Shown here: positions 9,943-36,670 of the stretch, one piece after another
Position numbering within the stretch: position 1 is the stretch's first letter
Layout: each line of letters begins with the position of its first letter
Source of the DNA: Prochlorococcus sp. AG-402-K10
GTDB taxonomy: Bacteria > Cyanobacteriota > Cyanobacteriia > PCC-6307 > Cyanobiaceae
Length of the DNA: 64,000 bases
Assembly: GCA_003216835.1 (NCBI GenBank)
Contig: QCIF01000001.1
Span: forward strand, 1 to 64,000
Reading direction: 5' to 3'
The notes under the pieces: model-generated
What the model was told of the DNA's origin: nothing
What the model saw: only the letters and a program-made list of their open reading frames with translations
The model's database searches: none
Translations under genes and position numbers: made by a program

Positions 9943-10326
9943 CTAAAACATCTTTTCTTTTAATAAATCAATTCTGTTTTGATTTACTCCTAAGTCGCTT
10001 TCACCAACTCTTGATTCTGATCTTATTAGCAATTTTTTTAATTCAGGTAAATAAGACACCTCTAAGTCGTCAACATACTTCATCCATTTGCTAGTTACCT
10101 CAGCATGAAGATAATCTCGATTAAGTTCTACAATTTCTGTGCGTGGAGTAATTGCAATAATTGATTGAATTGCTTCAAAAGGATTCTCACTATTTCTAAC
10201 ATCCCATTCTTCTCTTACACAGTGAGCAACTTCTATACACGGTTTTAACTCTACTTGATAGGCCAATGATGACTCAGGATATAGAAAACTTGTAAACATT
10301 AAAATAATTAGATAAATTATTTTCAT
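9943..10326 (-). CDS. DUF1499-type exported protein
   Basis: A 127-residue protein with a signal peptide (residues 1-22, ending SLA). The mature part fits DUF1499: PCIEVAHCVREEWDV at the start, then AIQSIIAITPRTEIVELNRDYLHAEVTSKWMKYVDDLEVSYLPE, and an ESRVGESDLGVNQNRIDLL end (S.SR.G.sDlGvNr.Ri). Function of the family is unknown. A terminator-like hairpin lies 32 bases upstream of its start, separating it from the small-RNA region. Confidence 0.75.
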   Translation of the reverse strand: MKIIYLIILMFTSFLYPESSLAYQVELKPCIEVAHCVREEWDVRNSENPFEAIQSIIAITPRTEIVELNRDYLHAEVTSKWMKYVDDLEVSYLPELKKLLIRSESRVGESDLGVNQNRIDLLKEKMF

Positions 10327-10353
10327 AAATCTAATAAATTTCCAAAATACTAA

Positions 10354-10462
10354 TAAAAAAAAGATCTCTCAATGAGAGATCTTTTTAATAAACTGATTTA
10401 AATCAAGTGTATCCTTGTTTCCACTGATTAAAATCAGTTCCTCCTACACACTTTTCTAATAT
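10354..10462 (-). ncRNA. Candidate small RNA with GGAAACA motif
   Basis: On the minus strand this stretch holds two near-palindromic hairpins (ACTGATT-type arms at 10422-10437 and 10392-10405) around the segment GTGGAAACAAGGATACAC, and ends in a strong hairpin with a T tract. There is no ORF. The GGAAACA loop recalls the Yfr2-type RNAs of Prochlorococcus, which carry that sequence in an unpaired loop, but only one copy is present here and I cannot confirm membership. The 5' end is a guess. Confidence 0.35.
10358..10386. terminator. Bidirectional intrinsic terminator
   Basis: Perfect 13-bp inverted repeat (AAAAAGATCTCTC / GAGAGATCTTTTT) with a three-base loop. Runs of T follow the stem in both directions, longer on the minus strand. 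It is placed to end a leftward transcript just before the DUF1499 gene. Confidence 0.75.
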
Positions 10463-10527
10463 CCCATCAATAACAGAAGAATGCGATACATATTAGGACT
10501 CTATATTAACTGTCACATAGCAAGAGA

Positions 10528-10603
10528 AACAAAAAGTACTCAAAGAATTACCTTGAGTACTTTAAAGTATCAGAAAAAATGTGTGAGGAGTTTCTGATAG
10601 GTA
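10528..10603 (-). ncRNA. Candidate Yfr1-like small RNA
   Basis: On the minus strand the 11-base sequence ACTCCTCACAC (10581-10591) is identical to the core of Yfr1. It lies largely in the loop of a hairpin whose 9-base arms (TATCAGAAA at 10591-10599, TTTCTGATA at 10568-10576 read on the minus strand) pair perfectly. An 11-bp terminator stem (10533-10543 with 10553-10563) followed by TTTTTG comes next. An AT-rich -10-like element (TAGATTAT) lies just upstream at about 10603-10610. No ORF exists. The layout (exposed core plus terminator) is that of a trans-acting small RNA. Ends are approximate. Confidence 0.55.
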
Positions 10604-11049
10604 TAATCTACTCCTCGAGTAATTTAAAAGCTTAGAGTATAAATTACTAATTATTCTTTAATCTGCAAATAAATCTCTTTCATCTTCAAAAATATAAATA
10701 ATATGCTTTATTTTGTATTAAACCAAATCTTATAAAAATAGTTTTTATTATTTCTACAATTTTTCTTGTTTATATTTTTGGGGAAATTGTAATATATTCG
10801 ATTAATTATATAGCTAAAAATCCAGATAAATACTTACATATTCATAAGAATCTATAACTTAATATACTTTATATTTAGGGAATATATTCATAAATAATTA
10901 ATAGAATTAATACATAATTAATTCACTGCAATTTAAGAAAACTAATAATAATTTTCTAAACGAAATTCTCTAAATTGAGTATAAATCCACTTCAAATAAG
11001 TAATAAAAATGATTTATATATATAAATAAAGATAGATTTTGCTATAAAA
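10604..11049. other. Intergenic stretch, no gene with a standard start
   Basis: About 445 bases of very AT-rich DNA. A hydrophobic open frame runs from about 10725 to 10859 on the plus strand (IKIVFIISTIFLVYIFGEIV and onward), but it has no ATG, GTG or TTG. I see nothing else that I can support. Confidence 0.3.
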
Positions 11050-11184
11050 ATGAAAAATACATCAATTATTACTCTTGATAGGCCTTTTAAAGAATTTAAA
11101 AGTGAACATAAATATCAAATCCTCGAGGATTATTGGAAGAAAAGAAAGAAGGAATGTGAAAAGAATCTCTCAAAATTTTGCTAA
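11050..11184 (+). CDS. Small basic hypothetical protein (44 aa)
   Basis: ATG at 11050. The peptide begins MKNTSIITLDRPFKEFKSEH and ends in a Lys/Glu-rich helix with two cysteines. It sits nine bases upstream of the next gene on the same strand, so the two may be translated from one message. No family is recognised. Confidence 0.4.
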   Translation: MKNTSIITLDRPFKEFKSEHKYQILEDYWKKRKKECEKNLSKFC

Positions 11185-11193
11185 CTTGATATT

Positions 11194-11442
11194 ATGAATT
11201 TTATTTTTTCCCTTTTATTAGCTGCTGTGATGTGGGTCCAAGTTCCACAATGGGACGCTGATTGGTCAAAATGTGCTGTTGATGTTCCTGATGCATCGTG
11301 TCACTGGTATGTAGCTTCACCTGATAATACTTTTGGGGAAGGTTTTGACTGGGAAGAAGCTCCATGGTTTGACGCTAATGGCTTACATGATGTTGCACAA
11401 ATCAGCAAGGAATCTGTTGTTGAAAAGCTTCAAAATAATTAA
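11194..11442 (+). CDS. Small exported Trp-rich protein
   Basis: An 82-residue protein with a short hydrophobic N-terminus (residues 2-16). The mature part is acidic and unusually rich in Trp and Asp (WVQVPQWDADWSKCAVDVPD, later GFDWEEAPWFDANGLHDVAQ), with two cysteines that could pair. GC content is higher than in its neighbours, which suggests stronger selection or expression. I do not recognise the family. Confidence 0.55.
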   Translation: MNFIFSLLLAAVMWVQVPQWDADWSKCAVDVPDASCHWYVASPDNTFGEGFDWEEAPWFDANGLHDVAQISKESVVEKLQNN

Positions 11443-11582
11443 TTTATTTTTTTCTTCAATTAACTATAAAAGTATTTTAATTTAATTTTTTAATGGTTAA
11501 TTTTAAATTAAGTTCAAAAAATATATGTGTATCTAATTGAGCTGAAGCATTAACTTCTGACTGAAAATTTAAAATTTATTAA

Positions 11583-12365
11583 TTAGCGAAATTTAGGAAT
11601 CAAAAGTGATGCAACGCAAATAACACTAATCGCGGGGCCAGGAGATAAGTTAAAAATAATCGAAAGAATAAAACCTAATAATGAGATACATAATCCAAAA
11701 AACGATGACCTAATCATTGCAATTCTGAGACTTTGAGCCTTATTTAGGCCTAACAAGGTAGGGGTTGAGAGAAGTGCAATTACAAGGATTACTCCAACAG
11801 CTGACATCGAGCTAACAATTACTAATGCAGTAGTGAAGCTAAGGGCAAGATTTAATAAAGAAACATTTATACCACTAGCTGATGCACCTTCTGGATCTAA
11901 TCCAACATATACAACTTTTTCGTATCCGAAAGTCATCAAAATTATAAAAGCTAGAAATGCAATTATTGTTCTAAGTAAATCACCAAAATTTGCTGTCAAC
12001 AAATCTCCAAATAGTACTGCCTCCAAATCTATTCTTATTCCGAGTAGAGGAATAATAAGAACTCCAAATCCAAGCATTCCAGCAAGAATAGTATTCATAA
12101 CTGCTTCATAATTTTCACTTTTTCTATTAGTTAAACTTTCAGCAAATACAGAGCCTAGAAGACCACTAATAACTCCTCCAATAGAAGGATGTACTCCTAG
12201 TGCTAGTGCTAGTGCTAGTCCAGGCAAGACACAATGAGAAATTAAATTAACTTGTAATAATCTTTTATGAGTGATTAATACAGTTCCCATTGCTGGGCAT
12301 AAGATTCCTGTAAAAACAGTTATTATTAATGGAACAAGCCACCAGTTGTTATTTATAAAAGACAT
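11583..12365 (-). CDS. znuB: Zinc/manganese-type ABC transporter permease (ZnuB-like)
   Basis: Membrane permease of the ABC-3 family, which moves Zn or Mn ions together with the ATPase and binding protein encoded nearby. The 260 residues form about seven to eight helices. The family pattern is visible: LITHKRLLQVNLISHCVLPG near residue 28, then GYEKVVYVGLDPEGASASGI near 147, and VGVILVIALLSTPTLLG near 190. Its start codon is only 17 bases from the zur start on the other strand, so its promoter would lie within zur or it is read from the znuC promoter. A (GCTAGT)-type repeat codes for an Ala-Leu run near residue 50. Zinc rather than manganese is inferred from the Zur-type regulator and box. 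Confidence 0.87.
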   Translation of the reverse strand: MSFINNNWWLVPLIITVFTGILCPAMGTVLITHKRLLQVNLISHCVLPGLALALALGVHPSIGGVISGLLGSVFAESLTNRKSENYEAVMNTILAGMLGFGVLIIPLLGIRIDLEAVLFGDLLTANFGDLLRTIIAFLAFIILMTFGYEKVVYVGLDPEGASASGINVSLLNLALSFTTALVIVSSMSAVGVILVIALLSTPTLLGLNKAQSLRIAMIRSSFFGLCISLLGFILSIIFNLSPGPAISVICVASLLIPKFR

Positions 12366-12382
12366 TATTTGAATGATTCGTT

Positions 12383-12817
12383 ATGATCGAAAATACGAGA
12401 CATAAAAAGATCGTGAAAACTATGATGAGTAATACTGACATTACCAAAAGACAAGAACAACTTCTTGAGGAACTTGATAGATGCGATGATGAATTGAGCG
12501 GACAAGAGTTGCATCGGCAATTGATTAACAAAGGAAAATCTATGGGTTTGACAACTGTTTATAGAAATCTGCAAATTTTGATAAAGCATGGCTTAATTCG
12601 TTCTAGACACCTTCCAACAGGTGAGGTTCTTTATACTCCTGTTGATAGAGATATTCATCATTTAACCTGTGTTCAGTGCGGAGAGACATCGAGAATGGAA
12701 GGTTGTCCTGTAAAAGATATTCAAACTCCTAAAAAAAATCCAGAAAAGTTTCAACTTTTGTTTCATACACTCGAATATTTCGGCCTTTGCCAAAACTGTT
12801 ATCAGGCCCAGAATTAA
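12383..12817 (+). CDS. zur: Fur-family repressor, Zur type
   Basis: Zinc-responsive repressor. 144 residues from the ATG at 12383; an ATG at 12425 is an alternative. The winged helix (SGQELHRQLINKGKSMGLTT then VYRNLQILIKHGLIRSR) is followed by the metal-binding part: HHLTCVQCGETSRMEGCP, and a second pair CQNC near the C-terminus. These two CxxC pairs hold the structural zinc. The setting (permease on one side, ATPase and binding protein on the other, a palindromic box between the last two) makes zinc control of this cluster the natural reading. It should bind DNA when zinc-loaded. Its promoter must lie within the first part of znuB. Confidence 0.87.
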   Translation: MIENTRHKKIVKTMMSNTDITKRQEQLLEELDRCDDELSGQELHRQLINKGKSMGLTTVYRNLQILIKHGLIRSRHLPTGEVLYTPVDRDIHHLTCVQCGETSRMEGCPVKDIQTPKKNPEKFQLLFHTLEYFGLCQNCYQAQN

Positions 12818-12830
12818 AAAGAAACATTTT

Positions 12831-13601
12831 CTAATCACAGATATTATTTTTATTTATTGCGCTAATGTTTATAGAATTTAATTTATCTTTTATTGAATCA
12901 GGACTACCAACGGCCAAAACAGTTTTATCAAGAACTATTACTTGATCATAATTATTTAAAGATTCTCCCCAATCATGGCTGCTGACAAGCAGAGAAAGAC
13001 CCGCATCTGCAAGTTGACGAACAATTTTTAGAAAATCTTCTTTAGCAGGAGGGTCCAATGCGGCGCAAGGTTCATCAAGAAGAAAAATTTTAGCAGGGGA
13101 CATAAGAGTCTTTGCTAGAAGAGCCCTTTGTTGCTGTCCACCTGAAAGAGAATCGAGTCTTCTATTAGCCAAGTTTGCTATACCAACTCTTTGCATAGTC
13201 GCCTCTAATTCACAACATTTATTGATCCAGGCATTAGGATTTGTTAGAAGTGCCTTGATTTGAAAGGGTGCATTACTTCTAGATTTTGAATACTTTATTT
13301 GTCCAAGAGATACTAGTTTTTCTACTGTGATTGGAAACTTCCAATTCATAGAACTTCTTTGAGGCATAAGTGCAACAAGAGATCTTGATTTATATAACTT
13401 GTCCCCATCAATTTTTATTTCCCCTTTGTCTGGGGCATTTTGTCCTTGAAGTATTTTAAGAAGAGTAGATTTACCAGCTCCGTTTGGACCAACTAGCGCT
13501 GTTAAAGTTCCAGGTTTAATCTCAACTGATACTTTATTTAAAGCTGGCTTACTTTTTTTAGTGTATGAATAGGTTAAATTTTCAGCGACTAAAGTAGCCA
13601 T
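12831..13601 (-). CDS. znuC: Zinc ABC transporter ATP-binding protein (ZnuC-like)
   Basis: A 256-residue ATPase that powers the ZnuB-like permease. Walker A GPNGAGKST (38-46), Q-loop around MPQRSS, signature LSGGQQQRALLAKTL, Walker B KIFLLDEPCAALD and the switch His in SSHDW are all present. It points left, converges with the end of zur (13 bases apart) and is divergent from the binding-protein gene. A Zur-like box lies in the 134-base region between them, so both directions can be repressed together. Read-through past its end would cross zur in antisense and reach znuB. Confidence 0.92.
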   Translation of the reverse strand: MATLVAENLTYSYTKKSKPALNKVSVEIKPGTLTALVGPNGAGKSTLLKILQGQNAPDKGEIKIDGDKLYKSRSLVALMPQRSSMNWKFPITVEKLVSLGQIKYSKSRSNAPFQIKALLTNPNAWINKCCELEATMQRVGIANLANRRLDSLSGGQQQRALLAKTLMSPAKIFLLDEPCAALDPPAKEDFLKIVRQLADAGLSLLVSSHDWGESLNNYDQVIVLDKTVLAVGSPDSIKDKLNSINISAINKNNICD

Positions 13602-34778: not shown

Positions 34779-35102
34779 TCACAAATGCTTAGATAAAGTG
34801 CTTGAAAGGGTAGCTTTTGGAACAGCACCTACAACAGTATCTACTTTTTGACCTCCTTTAAAGATCATTAAAGTTGGGATACTTCTTATTCCATATTGAC
34901 TTGCAACATTTGGATTTTCATCAGTATTTAATTTGAAAACTTTAATTTTTCCTTCAAAGTCTTTAGAAATTTCTTCTACTACTGGTGCTACCATCCTACA
35001 AGGGCCACACCATGGCGCCCAAAAATCAACTAATACTGGTAGATTACTTTGAAGTACTTCTTTGTCAAAAGATGAATCTGTTACGGCTGGAGCTGAAGAC
35101 AT
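34779..35102 (-). CDS. trxA: Thioredoxin
   Basis: 107-residue m-type thioredoxin with the redox site WCGPC (31-35), the cis-Pro in [10 protein letters not shown] and the usual [14 protein letters not shown] helix. It is reduced by thioredoxin reductase and regulates many enzymes in the light. Yfr1 and then guaB lie upstream on the same strand, the standard order in Prochlorococcus. Confidence 0.95.
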
Positions 35103-35193: not shown

Positions 35194-35247
35194 AAAAAAG
35201 CCCGAATAACGGGCGATTTTGTGTGTGAGGAGTATGGGGGTTAACCC
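35194..35247 (-). ncRNA. yfr1: Small RNA Yfr1
   Basis: On the minus strand it starts GGGTTAACCCCCAT, continues through the strictly conserved ACTCCTCACAC core (35223-35233), and ends in a GC-rich terminator stem GCCCG/CGGGC followed by a T tract (35192-35215). A TATTAT -10 box lies at 35256-35261. Sequence, size (about 54 bases) and place between guaB and trxA match Yfr1, a trans-acting RNA known to repress outer-membrane porin mRNAs in Prochlorococcus. Confidence 0.93.
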
Positions 35248-35328
35248 ATTTTTACATAATAACTCTTAAAAAGGTTTTTGCTGAAAATCAATACGAGAGT
35301 TTTTATAAATAGTTCTCTGTTTTAGATA

Positions 35329-36492
35329 TTATTTACCCATCCCAAGCTGCTGAGCTTTTTGATATACCTTACCTTCTGTTAAAAGTGATGGAGCAATAAC
35401 TATTTCTACATTTTGCATTTCCTTGATGTTTTTAACCCCAAGAGTGCTCATGGATGTCCTTATTGCACCAAGTAAATTATGTGTCCCATCGTCAAGCAAT
35501 GCTGGGCCTTTAATAATCCTTTCTAAAGATCCTGAAGAACCGACTTCAATTCTCGTACCTCGAGGTAATATTGGGCTTGGTGTAGCCATACCCCAGTGAT
35601 AGCCATTTCCTGGAGCACTTGATGACTTAGCTATGGGAGAACCAATCATTACTGCATCTGCACCACATGCTAAACATTTACAAATATCTCCACCAGTAAC
35701 AATTCCACCATCAGCAATAATAGGAATATACTTTCCACTTTCTTGAAGGTAATCATCTCTTGCCGAACGACAATCAGCAATTGCTGTTGCTTGAGGTATT
35801 CCAATTCCTAACACCCCTCTCGATGTACAAGCAGCTCCTGGGCCTATACCAACCATTAACCCAGATACTCCTGCCTTCATAAGCAGATGTGCAACTTCAT
35901 AAGTTACACAATTTCCTGCTATTACTGGAACTTTCAAAGATTGACATAAATTCCTAATACTCAATGATTCCTTTCCTTCCATACCAAGGTGCTCAGTGGA
36001 AACTACAGTACCTTGCAAAAAAAATAAATCTATATTCGAATCAACGAGTGTCTCTCTAAATTTTATAGCGGCTTGAGGAGTTCCACTTAAAGCAGCTATT
36101 CCACCCTTTTCTTTAATTTCATTTATTCTTTTTAATATAAGTTCCTTCTTTACGGGTTCACTATAGATTTTCTGCATTAATGGAACAAATTCATTTTTTC
36201 CAACAGATGAGATTTGGGACAATATTTCTTCGGGATATTCATATCTAGTTTGTATCCCCTCCATATTAAGTACCCCAAGAGAACCTAATTTACTAAGTTC
36301 TATTGCTGTTTTTACATCGACAACGCTATCCATTGCGCTAGCAATAATGGGTACTTCTCTTTTAAAATTGCCTATTGTCCAGGAAGGGTCTGTCAAATCG
36401 TAATCAAGAGTTCTATTCCCTGGTACTAAAGCTATTTCATCAATACCATAAGCCCTTCTGACTTTTCTGTTTAAACCAAGTTCAATATTCAC
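35329..36492 (-). CDS. guaB: GuaB-type inosine monophosphate dehydrogenase family protein (GuaB3 type)
   Basis: 387 residues from the GTG at 36492, which gives the start expected for marine cyanobacteria (VNIELGLNRKVRRAYGIDEI). An upstream reading to 36555 adds 21 residues but is unlikely. TIM-barrel signatures: IASAMDSVVD, the flexible loop GIGPGAACTSRG with the catalytic Cys, and GGIVTGGDICKCLACGADAVMIG (phosphate site). The CBS pair of classical IMPDH is missing, as in the GuaB3 group. The reaction is NAD-dependent oxidation of IMP to XMP. Confidence 0.9.
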   Translation of the reverse strand: MNIELGLNRKVRRAYGIDEIALVPGNRTLDYDLTDPSWTIGNFKREVPIIASAMDSVVDVKTAIELSKLGSLGVLNMEGIQTRYEYPEEILSQISSVGKNEFVPLMQKIYSEPVKKELILKRINEIKEKGGIAALSGTPQAAIKFRETLVDSNIDLFFLQGTVVSTEHLGMEGKESLSIRNLCQSLKVPVIAGNCVTYEVAHLLMKAGVSGLMVGIGPGAACTSRGVLGIGIPQATAIADCRSARDDYLQESGKYIPIIADGGIVTGGDICKCLACGADAVMIGSPIAKSSSAPGNGYHWGMATPSPILPRGTRIEVGSSGSLERIIKGPALLDDGTHNLLGAIRTSMSTLGVKNIKEMQNVEIVIAPSLLTEGKVYQKAQQLGMGK

Positions 36493-36670
36493 GGATTTTT
36501 TAATTATTCTGATTAAATTAACAACTAAAGGTGTAATAAGCCAATTATTATTCAAAAAAAACAGTTTTTTTTCTTATTTGTGTGTAAATGTGAGTATTTG
36601 GCAATTAATTATAAGTTTTTTTTTATTCATTATGACAATCAGTGCTTATTATTAAATAAAGCCTTTTTGT

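Follow-up and report, generated by a model that had tools for sequence, protein, structure and literature searches.

The question raised by this locus is what kind of RNA carries a second copy of the pairing motif known from Yfr1. The window, i.e., the whole stretch of 64,000 nucleotides from contig QCIF01000001.1 of Prochlorococcus sp. AG-402-K10 that was analysed here, holds ACTCCTCACAC on its minus strand at 10581-10591 and again at 35223-35233, both exact and both where a sequence-only reading had reported the Yfr1 core, and a match to this motif appeared in none of 100 dinucleotide-shuffled versions of the window. That reading had proposed another RNA, of different build, which could share, compete for or shift the targets of Yfr1. 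The features on which the answer depends are listed below.

10520..10598, minus strand: Yfr10-family sRNA, orthologue of MED4 Yfr18, with a hairpin carrying the Yfr1 motif and a terminator-like stem (RF02362, synteny)
10568..10599, minus strand: 5' hairpin of 9 bp with the motif in its loop (fold)
10581..10591, minus strand: ACTCCTCACAC, the Yfr1/Yfr10 pairing motif (exact sequence)
10533..10563, minus strand: 13-bp terminator-like stem with a T-rich tail (fold, terminator scan, alignment)
10599..10665, minus strand: putative 5' part of a longer primary transcript, its outer end (10665) approximate owing to gaps in the alignment (analogy with MED4 Yfr18, PMC2518516 Table 1, and alignment)
10511..10517, minus strand: TGTGACA element, situated between the RNAs and possibly belonging to a yfr2-type promoter (sequence)
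10386..10453, minus strand: Yfr2-family sRNA (Rfam Cyano-1), Yfr5-like (RF01701, 74.1 bits, gathering 41)
10441..10451, minus strand: GTGTGTAGGAG, in the 5' part of the Yfr2-family RNA, nearly complementary to the motif (sequence)
10358..10386, minus strand: terminator-like stem of the Yfr2-family RNA (terminator scan)
35197..35249, minus strand: Yfr1, flanked by the putative guaB and trxA ORFs (RF01116, 43.0 bits, gathering 38)

The motif copy at 35223-35233 lies in Yfr1, identified by its RF01116 match. The flanking ORFs at 35329-36555 and 34779-35102 are taken from their translations to be guaB and trxA, respectively, which agrees with the site that the sequence-only reading had given for this RNA. 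RF01116 matches 78 genomes, and the score of this Yfr1 is the lowest of all; every other genome except one scores 50-59. Its motif is intact.

The copy at 10581-10591 is built differently. Folding of 10520-10601(-) gave -22.4 kcal/mol (z -5.9, equalled by 0 of 200 shuffles), with a 9-bp stem closing a 14-nt loop that contains the motif except for its first A, which is paired, and with a second stem, of 13 bp and ending in a T-rich tail, 3' of this hairpin; the 9-bp stem and the order of elements described earlier were recovered. The terminator-like stem at 10563-10533 is one of two found, where 0.0 were expected in a 461-base region and 0.3 in an 801-base region. The window has four Rfam matches at gathering score, namely Yfr10, Cyano-1, Yfr1 and one tRNA, and the Yfr10 model (RF02362) matches 10520-10598(-) with 52.6 bits against a cut-off of 43; the Yfr1 motif inside a hairpin loop, by which the Yfr10 family is recognized, is present in this element. 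An additional RNA that carries the Yfr1 core in another architecture had thus been rightly proposed, but the family had already been named and published: the element is a member of the known Yfr10/Yfr12/Yfr18 family (RF02362).

Only exact copies of the motif stand out in this genome, because the number of matches with one mismatch (11) is the same as that of a backward-read control (11); exact copies of the backward-read motif numbered 0 in 15 genomes. A third exact copy, at C1:105996-106006(-), lies antisense within a 98-codon ORF and was dropped as probably due to chance. Sequences complementary to the motif with up to two mismatches occur eight times in the window, which is within chance, as 27 of 100 shuffles reach that number. 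In a near-complete relative, G211, Yfr1 matches RF01116 with 52.4 bits and lacks an exact ACTCCTCACAC, the sole exact copy in that genome being the one in its Yfr18-type RNA.

The neighbour of the element matches Cyano-1 (RF01701), which we take to be the Yfr2 family. This equation is supported by a genome, G135, whose RF02362 matches comprise 346661-346738, identical to the published MED4 coordinates of Yfr10, as well as 383217-383296 and 972241-972321(-), overlapping Yfr12 and Yfr18, respectively (PMC2518516). On account of this agreement G135 is taken as MED4, and its four RF01701 matches, at 346, 383, 654 and 972 kb, adjoin the published places of Yfr10, Yfr12, Yfr15 and Yfr18. The MED4 neighbours are given there as Yfr10-Yfr2, Yfr12-Yfr4, Yfr15-Yfr3 and Yfr18-Yfr5, and each of three Yfr10-type genes adjoins a Yfr2-family gene (PMC2518516).

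For HL-adapted strains, Yfr10 homologues are described as encoded upstream of Yfr2 homologues (PMC6778093), and this layout is present here, with the Yfr2-family RNA at 10386-10453(-) on the same strand as the motif and its model start 127 nt downstream of it. The neighbour is at the same time a nearly complementary partner of the element, differing from it in that it holds the opposing motif GTGTGTAGGAG rather than the Yfr1 motif. TGTGACA lies 62-66 nt ahead of the model start in 45 of the 51 RF01701 matches found in near-complete genomes (here at 10517-10511); its conservation suggests a separate promoter for the Yfr2-family RNA, and we would guess at a link with the CGRE1/GntR site that PMC6778093 mentions. 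Promoter scans of 10000-10800 found no sigma-70-like site directly upstream of either RNA. On one 25-kb single-cell contig, QCEN01000015.1, the tandem pattern occurs twice (L057 and L091), about 13.5 kb apart and on opposite strands, which means that the locus is truly duplicated or that the pattern is an artefact of assembly.

The neighbourhood at 9943-13601 codes for a DUF1499 protein, an ABC-3 permease, a Fur-family regulator and an ABC ATPase (Pfam), and may, in our reading, be a zinc or manganese uptake locus. Of the eight ORFs flanking the element, six were found in a 7.0-kb stretch of G135 at the 972-kb locus (L173), including those for DUF1499, the ABC-3 permease (91.9% identical) and the Fur-type protein, and this stretch overlaps the published coordinates of MED4 Yfr18 (PMC2518516). 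None of the eight was found around the Yfr10 and Yfr12 loci, for which the stretches were shorter (4.0 and 3.5 kb). Since the flanking genes match the 972-kb locus only, the element is identified by synteny as the orthologue of MED4 Yfr18, and its neighbour as that of Yfr5. At least 118 contig stretches with the tandem pattern, two of them from one contig, each include two or more of these flanking ORFs, and the nearest among the matches listed is from Prochlorococcus sp. AG-363-P06, with 96.2% identity over 5947 aligned bases.

With MED4 Yfr18 the element shares the exact motif, its position in a hairpin loop, the flanking genes and a same-strand Yfr5-type RNA that follows immediately, whereas the sequence outside the motif and stems has drifted and the motif is followed by CACACAT instead of CACACAC. 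MED4 Yfr10 has the Rfam family, the hairpin and a downstream Yfr2-family RNA in common with the element, but it differs in locus and flanking genes and in the distance from motif to Yfr2-family model start (147 nt versus 127 nt). MED4 Yfr18 was published as a 105-nt RNA with its 5' end 74 nt ahead of the motif and its 3' end just past the first hairpin, and Table 1 gives transcript products of 29 and 76 nt, next to 78 nt for Yfr10 (PMC2518516). The mapped transcript and the Rfam model therefore span different stretches in MED4, and by analogy the same mismatch may hold in the present genome.

In a set of 101 genomes of the genus, of which 30 are near-complete, RF02362 was found in 81 genomes (79 above the cut-off; 28 of the near-complete ones), RF01701 in 85 (28) and RF01116 in 78 (30). 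RF02362 was also found in eight of 121 genomes drawn from the family, five of the genus and three of other genera, which indicates a narrow range of the model, bearing in mind that stricter filters, by which weak matches are lost, applied to searches of more than 40 genomes. The 51 RF01701 matches are all those in the 28 near-complete genomes, picked regardless of the motif, and the 450 nt upstream of each contained the motif exactly in 30 cases, with one mismatch in seven, with two in five and with more in nine, i.e., with at most two mismatches in 42 of 51. By spacing, 26 matches have the motif 120-135 nt from the model start with up to two mismatches (Yfr18-type class; exact motif in 23), 17 have it at 138-155 nt with up to three, and eight fall outside both. 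These classes are defined by distance, with flanking genes examined for part of the Yfr18-type class, which occurs in 26 of the 28 genomes; either class occurs in 27.

In six stretches of the longer-spaced class (L198, L211, L219, L221, L234 and L240) the motif reads ACTCTTCACAC or ACTCTTCGCAC, and the Yfr2-family 5' end next to it has GTGTGAAGG in all but L234, where it has GTGTGAAGA. The two may form a drifting pair. Among motif variants set by eye against the Yfr2-family 5' end, some changes keep a G-U pair and others break the pairing, and no claim is based on them. A blastn search of a phage collection with 10340-10620 gave no match at 1e-5. The pattern of motif plus arm was met in nine viral contig stretches, none with an Rfam match at gathering score, and these were accordingly taken as chance or unrelated.

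Conservation in relatives had been named as a check of the hairpin and motif. Besides the exact motif in 23 of 26 rows, 92.1% of cells are paired in the 26-row alignment, compared with at most 53.4% when the partners are slid. The covariation score is 0.106, against at most 0.059 for slid partners, and 0 of 500 shuffles reach it. The inner eight pairs of the loop hairpin are paired in 96.6% of cells, nearly invariant and free of double changes, and the terminator-like stem is paired in 89.3%. Double changes were seen at four pairs, all in the terminator stem, a number that is also obtained with partners slid by -3, -2 and +1 and exceeded with -1 (five; range 2-5). As the loop hairpin is nearly invariant and double changes are no commoner than with slid partners, both stems are kept mostly by conservation, to which covariation adds little. 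A wider alignment of 26 rows, hand-picked from 43 with near-identical rows left out, combined 11 of the 26 Yfr18-type rows with 15 of the 17 longer-spaced ones (the latter class including L232, with three mismatches); it showed no covariation in the loop hairpin, its score being reached by 185 of 500 shuffles. The 40 nt ahead of the hairpin region are conserved as well (mean 0.89 versus 0.989 for the motif).

Regarding the pairing between the two neighbours, co-folding of the Yfr18 loop with the Yfr5 5' end, assumed to lie two bases ahead of the Rfam model, gave 15 bp with one bulged C and a net -14.0 kcal/mol, and co-folding of Yfr1 with the same end gave a net -16.0 kcal/mol, both values being without a shuffle control. 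When Yfr5 nt 1-20 was shuffled 200 times, the duplex energy, calculated with internal folding ignored, was reached five times with Yfr18 and 25 times with Yfr1. A bulged-C pairing had been proposed in 2008 (PMC2518516, section 10). In MED4, as described in PMC6778093, Yfr2 and Yfr1/Yfr10 capture each other in pull-downs; Yfr2 keeps Yfr1 and Yfr10 off the ppa mRNA in primer extension and footprint experiments with synthetic RNA, and relieves Yfr1 repression in a GFP reporter in E. coli. Yfr1 and Yfr10 have overlapping but distinct targets (almost half of those of Yfr1 and two thirds of those of Yfr10 are unique to one RNA), Yfr2 interferes with both, and Yfr10 goes up during dark acclimation (PMC6778093). 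These target data answer, for the family, the main question of the sequence-only reading.

We therefore put at about 93% the probability that the element is Yfr18, a Prochlorococcus sRNA from the Yfr10 family, whose gene stands head-to-tail with, and ahead of, that of the Yfr2-family RNA Yfr5. Its loop motif would pair with mRNAs, as do those of Yfr1 and Yfr10, and would be titrated by the nearly complementary 5' ends of Yfr2-family RNAs. For the element itself, the analysis established the family match, the hairpin, the terminator-like stem, the synteny, the tandem arrangement and the possibility of pairing. What is established in MED4 is the Yfr18 transcript (PMC2518516) and, for Yfr10 but not for Yfr18, an interaction with Yfr2 and mRNAs (PMC6778093). 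The copy in the window is probably transcribed, and by analogy Yfr18 would act like Yfr10.

Other readings of the motif were weighed against this one. Yfr1 (RF01116) shares the ACUCCUCACAC motif with the element, and the identity of all 11 nt would fit a redundant duplicate of Yfr1 with the same target set. In Yfr1, however, the motif is unpaired between two stem-loops (PMC6778093), and in the window's own Yfr1 it folds as unpaired after a first stem; the copy at 10581-10591 lies instead in a hairpin loop, away from the guaB-trxA site and in another Rfam family, and the target sets of Yfr1 and Yfr10 overlap only partly (PMC6778093). A duplicate of Yfr1 is thus highly improbable and was rejected on structure and locus. 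Of still smaller, nearly negligible probability is a transcript of the plus strand that would serve, as suggested earlier, as a perfect anti-Yfr1 sponge, and it too was rejected, its support not going beyond chance. That strand necessarily complements the motif exactly, and one promoter-like site (10088-10115) lies ahead of the motif on it, inside the stretch of a neighbouring ORF, but such sites are at chance level in 10000-10800 (five found, 5.0 expected), both RF02362 and RF01701 match the minus strand, and a known, near-complementary partner already exists in the same-strand Yfr2-family RNA, which the sequence-only reading had passed over. The promoter scan, which found no site directly upstream of the minus-strand RNA either, does not decide between the strands.

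The tandem could also be expressed mainly as one self-folding read-through transcript, in which the ratio of terminated to read-through product would set the free amount of Yfr18 and Yfr5. The common strand and the distance of 127 nt from the motif to the start of the Yfr2-family model are consistent with this, as is the 270-nt Yfr10-Yfr2 precursor listed for MED4 (PMC2518516 Table 1), but that entry concerns Yfr10-Yfr2 and not Yfr18-Yfr5, a terminator-like stem separates the two RNAs, and the conserved TGTGACA suggests that the Yfr2-family RNA has a promoter of its own, so that we consider read-through as the main product unlikely. A related and quite doubtful proposal is that Yfr18-Yfr5 is a self-titrating unit, with seed RNA and antagonist made from one locus, a read-through product that pairs with itself, and free RNA set by terminator efficiency and the intervening promoter. 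Such a unit would then be found just once in this genome, which is 94.6% complete and in which RF02362 and RF01701 each match a single site.

The identification of the element as Yfr18 has little weight as a discovery, since the family, the motif, the partner and the Yfr10 targets are all in print. It is an ordinary and correct re-discovery, the element, its motif, its site next to a gene of the Yfr2 family and the interactions within the family having been published, and what the present analysis adds is the exact identity of the element together with the counts. In this genome RF02362, RF01701 and RF01116 each match once, although at 94.6% completeness a copy could be missing, compared with one Yfr1, three Yfr10-type and four Yfr2-family RNAs in the MED4-like G135. 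The genome may hold the Yfr1/Yfr10/Yfr2 network in a naturally small form, and the result is useful as annotation.
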